64,000 nt of DNA from Gracilinema caldarium (GTDB lineage Bacteria; Spirochaetota; Spirochaetia; Treponematales; Breznakiellaceae), in contig NZ_JAJUHW010000002.1 in NCBI RefSeq assembly GCF_029265695.1, positions 1-64,000 of the forward strand. Direction: 5' to 3'. The position numbers were made by a program, and so were the translations under genes. Of this stretch, positions 35,543 to 41,558 are shown one piece after another; the first letter of the stretch is position 1, and every line of letters starts with the position of its first letter. The notes under the pieces were generated by a model, which was given only the letters and a program-made list of their open reading frames with translations, made no database searches and was not told the origin of the DNA.

Positions 35543-35880
35543 AAGAAAGTTTCAAGGGGCCCCTCTTTTTCTGTGAACATTGCGGTTCTCCGGTGCCCCA
35601 AAAAGCAAAACAATGTCCTACCTGCGGCCGATTCTTTGCCAGTGTCCGCTGTCCTTACTGTGGTTTTACCGGCTCCGAGGAACTCTTTTCCGAAGGCTGC
35701 CCAATCTGCGGTTATTCCCGGGGCAAACAGGAACCTCATACAGCTGATATATATCGAGATAAAATACCGTCTCACCGGACTCCCCGGGGACCTGTTACGC
35801 CGCTCCCATGGTGGGTCTACGGAATTAGCCTCTTTGCACTCCTTGTTGCCATAGCAACTATTCTCTTTGTTATGATTTAA
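35539..35880 (+). CDS. Zinc-ribbon protein with C-terminal transmembrane helix
   Basis: The 113-residue protein has four CxxC pairs (CEHC, CPTC, CPYC, CPIC) in the first 65 residues, forming two zinc ribbons, a linker, and one C-terminal hydrophobic segment (VYGISLFALLVAIATILF). It is probably tail-anchored in the inner membrane with the ribbons in the cytoplasm. It overlaps the preceding gene by 4 bp and the convergent amrS gene by 4 bp at its end. Confidence 0.7.
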   Translation: MKESFKGPLFFCEHCGSPVPQKAKQCPTCGRFFASVRCPYCGFTGSEELFSEGCPICGYSRGKQEPHTADIYRDKIPSHRTPRGPVTPLPWWVYGISLFALLVAIATILFVMI

Positions 35881-36893
35881 TAATAAATTGGAGCCGGTTT
35901 CCCGCAGTGGGAGCAAAAGTAGGCCTTTGTTTCCTCGTTGAGCTCAAGTCCCGGCGTCTCTATATGATACCCAGAACGTTCAACCAAGGATTTTCCGCAA
36001 TGACTGCACAGGGTTTGATTTGTTTCACCCCAAATATTCCCCAGGTAAACATATGAAAGCCTTCCCCGCACCAGGTTCTTTATCTGAAAAAGCAGCTCCT
36101 GTTTTGTAGGGCCTTCTCGCCACCGATATGCAGGGTGATAGGCCGAAAGGTGCCAGGGTATATCCGGTGAAAGACCCGAAAGAAATTCAACGATTCCCTC
36201 CGCTTCTGCAATAGAATCGTTAAGGCCCGTAACAACCAGGGTTGTTACTTCAAGATGTACATTCATTTCGCGGGCAAGCTCTAAAAAACGGCAGACGGCA
36301 GCTAGATCTCCACCGAGCTGATTGCGATACGTATCTGAATGAAAACTTTTTAGATCTATGTTTGCCGCATCAGTTAAGGAAAGTACATCCTTGGCGGGCT
36401 CTTCATTGATACACCCATTAGACACAAGCACCGTTGCAAGTCCCCGCTTTTTTGCCTCCCCCATGGCTTCCAGAAGGTATTCAATATGAACCAGGGGCTC
36501 CGAATAGGTAAAGGCCACCGCATCGGTCCCTGAATCAGCTGCAAGCTTTATGAGTTCAGCCGGAGAGATAGAACGAAATGTTATGTCGGTTTTTTGGGAT
36601 ATTTCCCAGTTCTGACAGAAGGGACAATGCAGGTTGCAGCCGACAAAGCCGACAGAAAAAATCGAGGAGCCGGGTCTAAAATGATACAGGGGCTTTTTTT
36701 CTATAGGGTCGATAGAGATACTGCTGATGCTGCCGTAATAGGGAAGGGCTAGGGCCCCCTCGGAACCCTGCCTCACTTTACAAAGCCCAAATGTACCCTG
36801 TTTAAGCACACAGCGGTGGGGACACAGGCCGCATTGAACCGTGGAGGGCCTGTCTTGTACTACACGGTAGTAGCGTCCCTCCGGTATGTTCAT
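35877..36893 (-). CDS. amrS: AmmeMemoRadiSam-type radical SAM protein
   Basis: The 338-residue protein has an N-terminal Cys set (C21, C24, C28, C38), the radical SAM motif GCNLHCPFC (C86, C90, C93), and two C-terminal CxxC pairs. The sequence FTYSEPLVHIEYLLE and HLSAYHPAYRW fit the AmrS branch (pyruvate formate-lyase activase-like). In many genomes it occurs with AMMECR1 and Memo genes; neither lies next to it here. Instead, the 125-residue gene upstream overlaps it by 4 bp. The reaction is not established from this sequence. Confidence 0.85.
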   Translation of the reverse strand: MNIPEGRYYRVVQDRPSTVQCGLCPHRCVLKQGTFGLCKVRQGSEGALALPYYGSISSISIDPIEKKPLYHFRPGSSIFSVGFVGCNLHCPFCQNWEISQKTDITFRSISPAELIKLAADSGTDAVAFTYSEPLVHIEYLLEAMGEAKKRGLATVLVSNGCINEEPAKDVLSLTDAANIDLKSFHSDTYRNQLGGDLAAVCRFLELAREMNVHLEVTTLVVTGLNDSIAEAEGIVEFLSGLSPDIPWHLSAYHPAYRWREGPTKQELLFQIKNLVRGRLSYVYLGNIWGETNQTLCSHCGKSLVERSGYHIETPGLELNEETKAYFCSHCGKPAPIYY

Positions 36894-37267
36894 CGATTTA
36901 AACTCCGCAGGAGCCGTTCATGCAGGCTCTTAGAGGTATTGATAAACTGCAAAGAATCCTGGACTTCAAAAGGTTCATGGATGACTCCATAGGCCCCTTT
37001 GCGAACCCAGATTTTAACAATCCGGATACTTTCTCCTGTTTCAGTTACCGCTGAAGGCAGGTCCTCCACATAGAGCACATCGCAGAGTTTAAACTCCATA
37101 ATAGTGGGGCTTGTACCCAGGGGATCAACCACAAATATCAGTTTTTCCGGCTCAAAAGGATGCTGACGGGGATAGCCCGAAAAGGGAATCCCATCGAGAG
37201 GGGGCTTGCCTGAGTATTTGGCAATTTCAAAAAGCGGGGCAGTTTCAAGATAGGTCGAAATGCTCAT
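36890..37267 (-). CDS. Conserved hypothetical protein coupled to amrS
   Basis: The 125-residue protein begins MSISTYLETAPLFEIAKYSG. It is soluble, mostly beta, with the conserved-looking segments KLIFVVDPLGTSPTIMEF and IRIVKIWVRKGAYGVI. No family is recognised. Its stop overlaps the amrS start by 4 bp, so the two are co-translated and probably act together. GGGAGG precedes the ATG. Confidence 0.55.
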   Translation of the reverse strand: MSISTYLETAPLFEIAKYSGKPPLDGIPFSGYPRQHPFEPEKLIFVVDPLGTSPTIMEFKLCDVLYVEDLPSAVTETGESIRIVKIWVRKGAYGVIHEPFEVQDSLQFINTSKSLHERLLRSLNR

Positions 37268-37323
37268 ACATACCTCCCGTATAAACTATACGCATAATTT
37301 ACAGAGAGGGCAAGATTGTTGGC

Positions 37324-37953
37324 TCACTTGATGAGCGTATCGACTGGAAGGCCCAGTTTATCCAGTTTTGGTGCAATAACAACTCTACAGTAACCTGCGA
37401 AGGGGTGCCGTTCATAGTAATCTTGATGGTATTCTTCGGCGGGCCAGAATGTTGCAAGGGGCTCTATGTGGGTTACCACGGGCTTTGCAAAGGCTTTGCT
37501 CGCAGTCAAACGGCGGATAAAATCTTCAATTCTTTGTTTCTGATCATCATTGGTATAGAGAATAATAGACCGGTATTGGGTCCCCACATCGGCCCCTTGC
37601 CGGTTTTCAGATGTCGGATCGTGGGCCTTAAAAAAGATATCGAGAATTTGTTCAAGACTTATTTTTTCTGGGTTGTATTCGAGCTTTACCACCTCTGCGT
37701 GTCCTGTTAGTCCTGTGCAGACCTGTTCATAGGTTGGGTTTTCTGTTTTTCCGCCCGCATAGCCAGAAACAGCGGATTCAATTCCTTCGATCCGTTCATA
37801 GACCGCTTCGATGCACCAAAAACAACCGCCGCCCAGCACTATACTTTCTCGTTTTTTATTCATCTCCATGCCGTTCACTCCCTCCAGCATTTGCAAAAGC
37901 AGCACAAAGCCAATCAGCAAAAGAATCGCCGCCTGTAAAATGCTGTATTTCAT
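37324..37953 (-). CDS. msrA: Peptide methionine sulfoxide reductase A, possibly membrane-anchored
   Basis: MsrA repairs oxidised methionine (S form). The catalytic GGGCFWC motif places Cys44 and Cys47, followed by the family sequence GYAGGKTENPTYEQVCTGLTGHAE and QYRSIIL. From the first ATG the protein has a hydrophobic segment (about residues 8-21), which could be an export signal or anchor; the alternative starts (Met29 or Met31) would give a cytoplasmic enzyme. It lies divergent from nudC. Confidence 0.9.
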   Translation of the reverse strand: MKYSILQAAILLLIGFVLLLQMLEGVNGMEMNKKRESIVLGGGCFWCIEAVYERIEGIESAVSGYAGGKTENPTYEQVCTGLTGHAEVVKLEYNPEKISLEQILDIFFKAHDPTSENRQGADVGTQYRSIILYTNDDQKQRIEDFIRRLTASKAFAKPVVTHIEPLATFWPAEEYHQDYYERHPFAGYCRVVIAPKLDKLGLPVDTLIK

Positions 37954-38030
37954 ACTATAAAGGTAATATATAAAGGTTGAAAAGAAAACAAAGTGGCACT
38001 TCTTTGTTGACCCTCTGGGGCCGATTCAGT

Positions 38031-38879
38031 ATGGTTGCTGTTATGATGCATAAAGACCGGTGGTTTGTATTTAAGGACAACGATGTCCTATTCCCGCGGG
38101 GCACAGCAATTAATGATGTCGTGCAGGGGATTGTATTTGAATCATCCCAAACCTTTGTTGAAAGCGATCATTATTTTTGTTTAAAAGATCAGGGTACTCT
38201 TATCCATACCCTGTTTTTTGATGGGGAATCTTTGAACCCAGATTTTGCAGACTGGGATTCTCTGCCGGTCCGTACTGTATTGGGTTCATTAAAGGCCCCT
38301 TATGCAGATGGAAATGATTGGCAGATCCTTTCTCGTTTTCTGCGGGCCTTTCATGCTGCCCAATGGCATGTTTCATCCCGGTTTTGCGGTTTTTGCGGCG
38401 CCCCTCACGGCGATGCGGAGGATGAGCTTGCCCGCCAGTGTACCCGCTGCGGAAGATTAGAATACCCCCGCATTACTCCTGCGGTTATAGTTGCCATTAC
38501 TGATGGTCAGGGGCGGCTCCTTCTTGCCCATAACGGCAAGTTTAAAAATAACGTATATGCCCTTATAGCCGGTTTTGTAGAGGCCGGAGAACGCCTGGAA
38601 GATACGGTACACCGGGAAGTCCGGGAAGAGGTAGGTATTGAAGTAGATTCGGTTACCTATGTGGCATCCCAGCCCTGGCCATTTCCTGCTTCCCTTATGC
38701 TCGCCTTTGAAGCCTGCTATAAAGGAGGGGAGCTTCGCTGCGATGGCAAAGAGATCCTGGATGCCCGCTGGGTTACCCCGGATACGCTCCCTGAACTTCC
38801 GGCCCCAGGATCCATATCCCGTTTCCTTATCGACCGCTGGCTTAGGGGGCGTACAAATCCCTGCCCTGGTCATCGATGA
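38031..38879 (+). CDS. nudC: NADH pyrophosphatase (NUDIX)
   Basis: The enzyme hydrolyses NADH and, in some bacteria, removes NAD caps from RNA. A zinc ribbon (CGFCGA and CTRCGR) precedes the NUDIX box GFVEAGERLEDTVHREVREE, and SQPWPFPASLM is the NudC-specific motif. The frame is open to a TTG at 37977, but the ATG at 38031 leaves 77 bp for promoters between it and msrA; the start is not certain. It overlaps the convergent fumarase gene by 38 bp. Confidence 0.9.
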   Translation: MVAVMMHKDRWFVFKDNDVLFPRGTAINDVVQGIVFESSQTFVESDHYFCLKDQGTLIHTLFFDGESLNPDFADWDSLPVRTVLGSLKAPYADGNDWQILSRFLRAFHAAQWHVSSRFCGFCGAPHGDAEDELARQCTRCGRLEYPRITPAVIVAITDGQGRLLLAHNGKFKNNVYALIAGFVEAGERLEDTVHREVREEVGIEVDSVTYVASQPWPFPASLMLAFEACYKGGELRCDGKEILDARWVTPDTLPELPAPGSISRFLIDRWLRGRTNPCPGHR

Positions 38880-40557
38880 TGACAAAGGCCAAGAGGTCCC
38901 GGACCCGGATGCGCCGGACCGCTTCCATGCCTAACTCCGGATAGTCAATAATTTCGCTTTCCAAAATGTTTTCTTCTGCTATGAGAGCCGCGGCTCCGCC
39001 TATGGTGCCAAGATAAAAGGCTCCGTATTTTTTGCAGGCCTCTCTCCATGTTTTAGTCCTATTACCCTTTGCAAGGGTAATAAGGCTGGCTCCCCGGCTC
39101 ATCAATTCATCCGCATAGGCGTCCATCCGTTGAGCTGTGGTGGGACCGAAACTGCCGATTACTTTTCCCGCAGGGGTTGCTGCTGGTCCCGCATAGTAAA
39201 TAGGGTACCGGGCAACATAGTCCGGAAGCTTTTCGCCCCGCTGTAAAATCTCGTGCCATTTCAGGTGGGCGGCGTCTCGGGCGACCAGCAGGTTCCCCGA
39301 AAGAAGTATCCGGTCCCCGGCAGCGGAGCCCCGCAGGGCTTCAAGTGTTTTCTGTATGCCCTGGTCAAGGTCTATGGATCGTACTCTTGAATCAGCATGG
39401 TCAGGACCTTTTATTGATACAGCCGAACCTGCTGGTCGCCCGAGCCCCTGCTTGCGGGTCCTGCTTTGCTCGTAGCTTTCTGCCAGGCTCCGAACTGCGC
39501 CGCCCTGTTTTTTAAGGAAATCCAGCGGCTGCTGTTCGAGTTTTTCGAGCCAGACCCCAGAGGCGTTGATTTTAGCCAGCATGTTACGGTGGGCCGAACA
39601 GGATACGCCGATAGAAACCGGGCAAGAGCCGGCATGGCGGGGCAGCCGGATCAGCCGGGCATCGAGGGCTAGAAGGCTGCCCCCGAACTGGGCACCGAGG
39701 CCGCTCGCCCGTGCGATATTCATCAACTTATTTTCCCAAAGGGCATCCCGAAAGAGCCATCCCTGCTGTCCCTGCTGGGCTGCCCCATCCATAAACGGAG
39801 CCCTATCCAGAATTTCCGTGGTTGCTAGTTTCAGGATGGTTAAGTTTTCTTCGGGGCTCGTGCCGCCCACCACGACCGCAAGCCGGTAGGGCGGACAGGC
39901 AGCGGTTCCCAGGGCTGCTATTTTTTCTCTTAAAAAGGCTTCGAAGGCTTCTGGCTCGAGGAGTGCCTTGGTCATCTGAAAGAGACTTGTCTTGTTAGAT
40001 GAACCTCCACCCTTAGCGACAAATAAGAATCGGTATTCTGCACCTTCCGGCTTATCCGGTACCGCCTCGATATGAATCTGGGCGGGAAGGTTGGTCCCCG
40101 TGTCAAATTCATCAAAAAGGTTTAGAAATCCAACTTGACTGGATCGCAGGGGATTTTCCGTGTAGGCCCGCAGCACCCCGCGGCTTATGGATTCCTGGTC
40201 ATCCGTTCCCGTATATATCGATTCACCCTTCCAGCCAATAACTGTGGCGGTTCCCGTATCCTGACAGAGGGGGAGCTTTCCTTCCGCCGATATGAGGGCG
40301 TTTGTAATGAGTTTTTCCAATACAAGCCGGTCGTTGGTGCCCGCTGCCTCGGCGTTATAGCCTTCGGCCCAAAGTTTAAGGTGGCTTGGCCGCAGATAGT
40401 AGGAGACCCTAAAAAAGGCTTCTTGAGCTACAGCGGTGAGCACCGAGGGATCCAAAGAAAGCCGGCCCTGAGAAACACGGATTGTTCCGGGCAGGGGGAG
40501 AAGGGGTTCAAAGCTGGTATTCTGAAAGGCTGCATCGATAATTGATCCAATATTCAT
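38842..40557 (-). CDS. fumA: Class I fumarate hydratase
   Basis: This 4Fe-4S enzyme converts fumarate and malate. The 571-residue protein has PLCQDTGTATVIG, the GGGSSNKTSLFQM segment, and VVVGGTSPEENL, then the C-terminal beta-domain with GSFGPTTAQRMDAYADEL and GTIGGAAALIAEENI. Length fits the single-chain class I form. It lies 14 bp after the P-loop gene at 40572-41558, so both are probably on one transcript. Confidence 0.93.
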   Translation of the reverse strand: MNIGSIIDAAFQNTSFEPLLPLPGTIRVSQGRLSLDPSVLTAVAQEAFFRVSYYLRPSHLKLWAEGYNAEAAGTNDRLVLEKLITNALISAEGKLPLCQDTGTATVIGWKGESIYTGTDDQESISRGVLRAYTENPLRSSQVGFLNLFDEFDTGTNLPAQIHIEAVPDKPEGAEYRFLFVAKGGGSSNKTSLFQMTKALLEPEAFEAFLREKIAALGTAACPPYRLAVVVGGTSPEENLTILKLATTEILDRAPFMDGAAQQGQQGWLFRDALWENKLMNIARASGLGAQFGGSLLALDARLIRLPRHAGSCPVSIGVSCSAHRNMLAKINASGVWLEKLEQQPLDFLKKQGGAVRSLAESYEQSRTRKQGLGRPAGSAVSIKGPDHADSRVRSIDLDQGIQKTLEALRGSAAGDRILLSGNLLVARDAAHLKWHEILQRGEKLPDYVARYPIYYAGPAATPAGKVIGSFGPTTAQRMDAYADELMSRGASLITLAKGNRTKTWREACKKYGAFYLGTIGGAAALIAEENILESEIIDYPELGMEAVRRIRVRDLLAFVIIDDQGRDLYAP

Positions 40558-40571
40558 ATTCTAATCCTCTT

Positions 40572-41558
40572 TTACTCCTCGGCGATGTTGCTTAAGATTT
40601 GATCGTAGCCGGCGTTTTCTTCGTGGCCGACCCGGCCAATCAGCATATATTCGTGAAAAATAGGATGGTATCGCAAGGCTTTAACGAGACGGAAATTTTC
40701 TATCTGGCCCGAATTCTGCACATGGGTCCGGATCCCGGTACAGAAGATGCTTTCCTCCCCAATTTGAATGTGGTCCGCATCAATGGGCATGATCGGGATG
40801 TTCTGCTGAATAATCTCCTTTACTTTCTGTTCAAGCTCAGGGATATTTATGTCCGGTTTTTCCGGAAAATTGATGACAAATCCGTGTTTTACATCCGAAT
40901 GGAGTACCCGCCGTTTCAGATTATAGTCCCGTTCAAGGATCATAGTGGTAATATCCTCCGCTGAATGGGCCATGAGGCGGAATTTGATCGTCCGGTTTAC
41001 AATATCCCGAATGGCCTCCGGAAAAGGGCCGAATACGCTGGGCCGGCTTACAATGACTTCTTCGCCGATACCGAAGATAATCTGGGCATTGTATCCCAGG
41101 GTTTCCCAGATAAGATCAAAATGTTCTATGACCACCCGCCTGCCATGTGATATGGCATGGGAAATGGCTTCAGCGATTTCCCATTTTTGTCGGAAGCCTA
41201 GCTCGTAATGGACATCGATATGAAAGGTATGGGGGGCAAAAAAATCCTCTGGGTCAAAGTCGTAAATTAATGCCTGCCGTACATTGGTGCCCTCGTCGTC
41301 ATTGGTAAGTTCCAGTCCTGGAAATAGGCCCCGGACCAGGGTAGACTTGCCAGAACCGGGGGCTCCGATAATGCCGATAATAAGGTCGTTTGCATAGAGG
41401 TACCGGTGGGAAAGTTCGTTTCCCAGCATATACAGGCGCTGCCGGCCCCGGGGGGCGTAATAGGTTGCATAGATCAGGGTTTCATAGGTATGGGGCCGGT
41501 AGTCAAAGAGGGGCATTGGCACCGGGCCAGGAATTTGTCTGTTCTTGTCCGTACTCAT
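40572..41558 (-). CDS. P-loop kinase-like protein with tRNA-synthetase-like editing domain
   Basis: The 328-residue protein starts MSTDKNRQIPGPVP. Residues 65-73 (GAPGSGKST) are a Walker A loop of a kinase-type P-loop domain. Residues about 192-295 resemble the second additional domain (editing or N2 domain) of threonyl- and alanyl-tRNA synthetases: FRLMAHSAEDITTMI matches the HxxxH helix, FPEKPDINIPELEQKVKEII the helix after GFYYDF, and CTGIRTHVQNSGQIENF the C-x-G-x-H-V motif. The metal set is altered: the second His of HxxxH is Asp/Glu, and two extra residues separate Cys273 and His279. A related combination with the domains in reverse order is known in bacterial uridine-kinase-like proteins. 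The role is unknown; an editing or nucleoside kinase function is possible. Confidence 0.65.
   Translation of the reverse strand: MSTDKNRQIPGPVPMPLFDYRPHTYETLIYATYYAPRGRQRLYMLGNELSHRYLYANDLIIGIIGAPGSGKSTLVRGLFPGLELTNDDEGTNVRQALIYDFDPEDFFAPHTFHIDVHYELGFRQKWEIAEAISHAISHGRRVVIEHFDLIWETLGYNAQIIFGIGEEVIVSRPSVFGPFPEAIRDIVNRTIKFRLMAHSAEDITTMILERDYNLKRRVLHSDVKHGFVINFPEKPDINIPELEQKVKEIIQQNIPIMPIDADHIQIGEESIFCTGIRTHVQNSGQIENFRLVKALRYHPIFHEYMLIGRVGHEENAGYDQILSNIAEE

Follow-up and report, generated by a model that had tools for sequence, protein, structure and literature searches.

The FAM gene and its neighbours

Within the window, the whole 64,000-nucleotide stretch of DNA that was analysed, lies a gene, here labelled FAM, whose product joins a P-loop half to a half resembling tRNA editing domains (Table 1), and a single copy of it is present in the 3.04 Mb Treponema-related genome to which the window belongs. 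The ATG at 41558 was taken as the start, the frames of close relatives beginning at or near it, for example those at L002 and L009, which open with MNMNNNGKIPGP. When the protein was searched against Pfam and NCBIfam no model scored above its cut-off, the family having no model of its own, and two plasmid homologues are labelled 'hypothetical protein' by PGAP. AlphaFold2, given four input sequences, reached a pLDDT of 31.8 for the full protein and 45.7 for the C-terminal domain.

A search of the available literature found no account of a FAM-type protein and no paper linking methylaspartate, aspartyl-tRNA synthetase and editing; the available text of the main survey of methylaspartate clusters (PMC4682846) names no P-loop/SAD protein, but Figure 4 of that survey could still depict one without a label. 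Neither the folds nor the pathway is new, but the databases searched contain no description of the family, of its domain order or of its re-modelled site.

The next gene, annotated as a fumarase, begins with an ATG 14 bases downstream of FAM on the same strand, which is consistent with the co-transcription of the two genes that had been proposed. The region 35877–40557 holds this fumarase gene together with a nudix hydrolase, msrA, an ORF of 125 aa and a radical SAM protein, a set that is kept beside FAM in genomes G028 and G022.

Table 1. Position and basis of the features at the FAM locus (window coordinates; residues are those of the FAM protein)
Feature	Coordinates	Strand	Basis
FAM gene (P-loop/SAD-like protein, 328 aa)	40572..41558	(-)	translation; single copy; homologues keep length and motifs
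P-loop NTPase/kinase-like domain, residues 28-185	41004..41477	(-)	sub-threshold AAA_18 and AAA_33; invariant family motifs
Walker A GAPGSGKS, residues 65-72	41343..41366	(-)	direct reading; conservation
SAD-like (tRNA editing type) domain, residues 186-313	40620..41003	(-)	hhalign 97.8% with shuffle controls; weak tRNA_SAD match in 15/18 members
H198-S-A-E-D202, counterpart of the HxxxH metal motif	40953..40967	(-)	hhalign alignment; conservation
C273-T-G-I-R277-T-H279, counterpart of C-x-G-P-H with two more residues and an invariant Arg	40722..40742	(-)	hhalign alignment; conservation
Single-chain class I fumarase, probably mesaconase (mesaconate hydratase)	38842..40557	(-)	PF05681 + PF05683; 14-base gap; operon of genome G439

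The C-terminal half and its altered metal site

The characterised SAD domains, those of ThrRS, AlaRS and AlaX, deacylate mis-charged tRNA. A profile of the C-terminal half of FAM (residues 186–313, 18 family members) was compared by hhalign with a profile of the AlaRS, ThrRS and AlaX editing regions from spirochaete genomes, giving a match of 97.8% probability (E 1e-12) over 94 columns, and the matches to ThrRS alone and to AlaRS alone reached 96.4% and 96.8%. Since the best of 100 column-shuffled profiles gave 12.7% and the reversed profile 0.7%, the match is well above chance, and the comparison with ThrRS and AlaX editing domains that had been suggested as a check bears out the synthetase editing (SAD/N2) pattern that the original prediction had read in this half. 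The Pfam model tRNA_SAD is matched by the window protein below its cut-off of 24 bits (E 0.013, 15.9 bits over the full length and 17.5 for the domain alone) and weakly by 15 of the 18 members, with a best E of 3e-4, while the AlaXM model is touched by only two of them (best E 0.09). Based on these profiles, the C-terminal half is almost certainly a homologue of the SAD domain. An identity as elongation factor 1-beta, to which there are matches in PDB and NCBIfam, was rejected, these being below threshold and confined to the acidic helix.

The order of elements, with an HxxxH-like helix, a strand, an acidic helix, a C-x-G-x-H-V-like motif and a TGxIxxFxL ending, is shared with PF07973, ThrRS N2 and AlaX, but the FAM domain is about 25 residues shorter between the acidic helix and the Cys, it follows an N-terminal P-loop domain, unlike the stand-alone SAD of the AlaX trans-editing proteins, and in the window protein it stays under the Pfam cut-off. 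A difference in motif concerns the metal site, which was predicted to have lost one His and to have a Cys-His spacing two residues longer. Both changes were found throughout the family, the second His being replaced by Asp or Glu and the longer spacing including an inserted, invariant Arg. FAM has HSAED where the editing domains have HxxxH, and C-T-G-I-R-T-H-V where they have C-x-G-P-H-V, so that a C-x5-H stands in place of C-x3-H and neither signature is present. Among 25 FAM sequences H198, A200, E201, C273, G275 and R277 are invariant, residue 202 is D or E (giving HxxxE in Prevotella) and H279 is exchanged for Q in Prevotella. Judged by its motifs, FAM is a SAD homologue that lacks the catalytic signature of that family, and in most members the residues H, D, C and H may bind a metal.

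The N-terminal half and proteins with a related domain pair

The kinase-type Walker A predicted in the N-terminal half is present, and its key positions G65, G68, G70, K71 and S72 are invariant in the family, with a single S to A exchange at position 69. Further invariant motifs in this half are APRG, GxxGxGKS, FPG-x-x-L-x-N-x-D, HxD, EHF, GxGEE and RPxxxGPxP, and acidic residues follow the P-loop helix. All Pfam matches of the window protein in this half are below threshold (AAA_18, E 0.0014; AAA_33, E 0.006), with no match to PRK, and the likeness of the domain to nucleoside and nucleotide kinase models is weak (E 3e-4), the matches to kinase families being sub-threshold only.

The same pair of domain types is found in one chain in the TGS-SAD-uridine kinase-like proteins, which differ from FAM in having the reverse order, an additional TGS domain and a true PRK/uridine kinase domain (E 3e-17). 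One such protein, of 561 aa, is encoded in the same genome (L072:16369-18051, contig C49), with PRK as its best Pfam match and a SAD region without the catalytic residues, in agreement with the opposite domain order noted earlier for uridine kinases. That the two proteins would form one domain-swapped family is unsupported, the kinase halves aligning at the Walker A only (42%). The gene for the TGS-SAD-uridine kinase-like protein follows closely on the glutamate mutase operon both in this genus and in a related one (also at L073:16522-18180 and L074:3567-5369), so that both orders of P-loop and SAD occur near this pathway.

Distribution of FAM

A survey of spirochaete genomes, of the kind that had been proposed, found FAM homologues in 18 out of 120 genomes from the same taxonomic family and, by profile search across the phylum, in 10 of 393. 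The family is not specific to spirochaetes, as the original prediction had suggested it might be, since members with about 46% identity were identified in Prevotella nigrescens (Bacteroidota) and, as protein WP_025436946.1, in Peptoclostridium acidaminophilum (Bacillota), outside Spirochaetota from plasmids alone; the other part of that suggestion, a family of undescribed function, agrees with the searches of models and literature above. No relatives were found in viral contigs and phages. Full-length members score above 440 bits with the FAM profile and the next matches 25 bits, a gap showing that FAM is one compact family without paralogues.

The identities among members do not track taxonomy simply, some FAM proteins of the same family being closer to that of Peptoclostridium (55–58%) or Prevotella (50–56%) than to that of the window (about 45%). 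When compared with the divergence of GlmE and Mal, the divergence of FAM gave Spearman coefficients of 0.58 and 0.59 (Mantel 0.001), as expected if the genes travel with the pathway.

Linkage to the methylaspartate pathway

The main genomic context of FAM, missed by the original prediction, makes it practically sure that the gene belongs to the glutamate fermentation pathway via 3-methylaspartate. Its linkage to glmSLE, mal and mesaconase genes is kept across lineages in three phyla, the usual order being glmS-glmL-glmE-mal-AtuA-DUF4387-FAM-mesaconase, and a GntR regulator stands at the head of many of these operons. Among 21 loci with enough sequence FAM is located directly upstream of mesaconase genes in at least 18 (the exceptions are L030, L044 and L047), and in 16 of 21 assessable loci it is located directly downstream of mal or AtuA-DUF4387. 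Variants are the order glm-mal-FAM-mesaconase-citXG at L035, a FAM-mesaconase pair separate from glm-mal in the genus of the window and in G040, G068 and G103, and citC-FAM-citX in P. acidaminophilum, inside the citramalate lyase genes and beside glmS and glmL. In the genome of the window the glm-mal-AtuA-DUF4387 operon is found on contig C49.

Co-occurrence points in the same direction. Glutamate mutase E is present in 17 of the 18 genomes with FAM in the same family (Fisher P = 1.6e-17), and in the two genomes of that family with GlmE only, the glm contigs end before the position of FAM; at phylum level glutamate mutase accompanies FAM in five of seven genomes (P 1.6e-5), and the two exceptions have mal-AtuA-DUF4387-FAM on broken contigs. 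The association of FAM with CitF is weak (P 0.03).

The clusters glmS-mutL-glmE-mal-mesAB-cit described in the available text of PMC4682846 are of the same operon type as the FAM loci, with a matching mesaconase neighbour. According to the same text class I fumarases hydrate mesaconate, and as genome G439 carries the FAM-fumarase pair of the window inside a complete methylaspartate operon, the 'fumarase' of the window is most likely a mesaconase; its annotation is corrected here to probable mesaconase.

A few loci depart from these arrangements. In G193 (L047:3452-4978) FAM is followed directly by an ORF of 509 aa, by eye glutamine synthetase-like, in the place of the mesaconase, and in G060, a genome that is 73% complete, FAM adjoins an ORF that by eye resembles an adenine deaminase, on a contig where no pathway genes were detected. 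G206 contains two divergent GlmE-like genes with 34–36% identity and no mal nearby (L112:8361-11797 and L113:9477-11385), one beside a GlmL-like and the other beside a GlmS-like gene, possibly representing a different carbon-skeleton mutase.

Citramalate lyase and the complete pathway

Neither CitF nor a CitE-like protein was found in the genus of the window, the complete genome G028 included, and FAM was considered as the missing citramalate-cleaving enzyme. This candidate was dropped when AtuA and DUF4387 were found to match chains A and B of PDB 9erq (E 1e-179 and 2e-27), deposited as the citramalate lyase subunits CmlA and CmlB. The AtuA and DUF4387 proteins of the FAM operons are homologous to CmlAB (PDB 9erq, 9evf), of which FAM is no subunit, and with them every reaction on the way from glutamate to acetate and pyruvate has an enzyme without recourse to FAM. 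The treponeme genus of the window has a complete methylaspartate pathway and lacks citrate-lyase genes. A role of FAM as a replacement of CitG was ruled out, CitG being present as a CitX-CitG fusion.

On contig C49 the pair lies downstream of mal (L072:12714-14434), and between DUF4387 and the TGS-SAD-kinase (L072:14314-16169) stand two ORFs, about 331 and 299 aa long, that have no Pfam match; similar ORFs occupy the same place in L073. What is apparently the same pair is seen in E. coli O157 Sakai as ECs_0759-ECs_0760, annotated as 3-methylaspartate ammonia-lyase and acyl-CoA synthetase; it may answer the question on the fate of citramalate that PMC4682846, in its available text, leaves open.

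Putative function of FAM

Although fermentation by the methylaspartate route is a classical anaerobic process, the FAM gene, found in the operons of that route in three phyla, had neither a name nor a model in Pfam or NCBIfam. FAM occurs with single-chain as well as two-subunit mesaconases and with either AtuA-DUF4387 (CmlAB) or CitDEF as citramalate lyase, two unrelated enzymes, CitDEF being present without CmlAB in the operons L035, L040 and L041; what all its contexts have in common is glutamate mutase and methylaspartase. This pathway core is also found without FAM, in genus g58, in family f17 and in the E. coli O157 cluster, which from glmE to the regulator differs from the FAM loci in lacking the gene. 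With two types of mesaconase, two types of lyase and some bacteria running the pathway without it, FAM is accessory and not a catalytic step, and its domain pair likewise points away from another catabolic enzyme. FAM probably protects or controls the pathway, and being accessory and found with differing enzyme sets its target is likelier a metabolite, or the side effects of one, than a single partner enzyme. The context raises the question whether a cell that makes 3-methylaspartate depends on a factor for proofreading or sensing, and what role the re-modelled editing site plays. FAM may bind tRNA or nucleosides, as the original prediction proposed.

The leading reading, put forward tentatively, is that FAM acts in quality control, linked to ATP, and counters mis-acylated 3-methylaspartate. 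The SAD half would still bind and hydrolyse an acyl or aminoacyl group in ester linkage, R277 being placed to meet an acidic side chain, its most probable target would be 3-methylaspartate, a non-protein amino acid, wrongly attached to tRNA, and the P-loop half would couple hydrolysis to ATP by gating or phosphorylation, letting cells sustain a high flux through 3-methylaspartate. Its stricter form, a P-loop-coupled editing factor guarding translation and hence pathway-specific tRNA proofreading encoded inside a catabolic operon, is doubtful. Such editing fits the SAD homology, a pathway that makes a non-protein amino acid and the tie of FAM to the chemistry of glutamate mutase and methylaspartase and not to one protein partner. 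However, the absence of HxxxH and the Gln at 279 in Prevotella suggest that FAM may no longer have the metal site for hydrolysis, known trans-editing factors have no fused P-loop domain, FAM in the genus of the window lies with the mesaconase and away from the glutamate mutase operon, and the bacteria with the pathway but no FAM manage without such a factor.

The altered motif (HxxxD/E, with H279 not invariant) beside an invariant E201 and R277 would also suit an ATP-dependent sensor or regulator, in which an acidic compound, be it glutamate, methylaspartate, mesaconate or citramalate, would be bound by the SAD-like domain, and enzymes of the pathway would be switched or phosphorylated by the P-loop half. 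Its presence with non-homologous enzyme sets and its dispensability in some bacteria agree with this, but chemistry seems to be kept, to judge from the invariant H198 and C273, and a GntR regulator already heads many operons; we regard it as possible but not likely. The position next to the mesaconase, also where the rest of the pathway lies elsewhere in the genome, favours a maturation or repair factor for this oxygen-sensitive [4Fe-4S] enzyme, which is nevertheless rather unlikely considering that the mesaconases are of two different types, that spirochaetes with the pathway and E. coli O157 have a class I mesaconase without FAM, and that the gene of P. acidaminophilum lies between citC and citX-citG. 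An unrecognised kinase or ligase step on mesaconate, citramalate or a cofactor could account for the P-loop domain, the acidic residues after its helix and the weak nucleoside/nucleotide kinase likeness, but with Glm, Mal, mesaconase and a citramalate lyase (either CmlAB or CitDEF) in place no step lacks its enzyme, and organisms run the pathway without FAM, making this small-molecule enzyme an unlikely one. The neighbourhood of FAM in G060 could indicate that the gene has drifted to a role unrelated to the pathway, in housekeeping or with tRNA, and is merely carried in the operon, which is highly improbable given the incompleteness of that genome, the recurrence of the operon linkage across three phyla and the near-perfect co-occurrence with the pathway.
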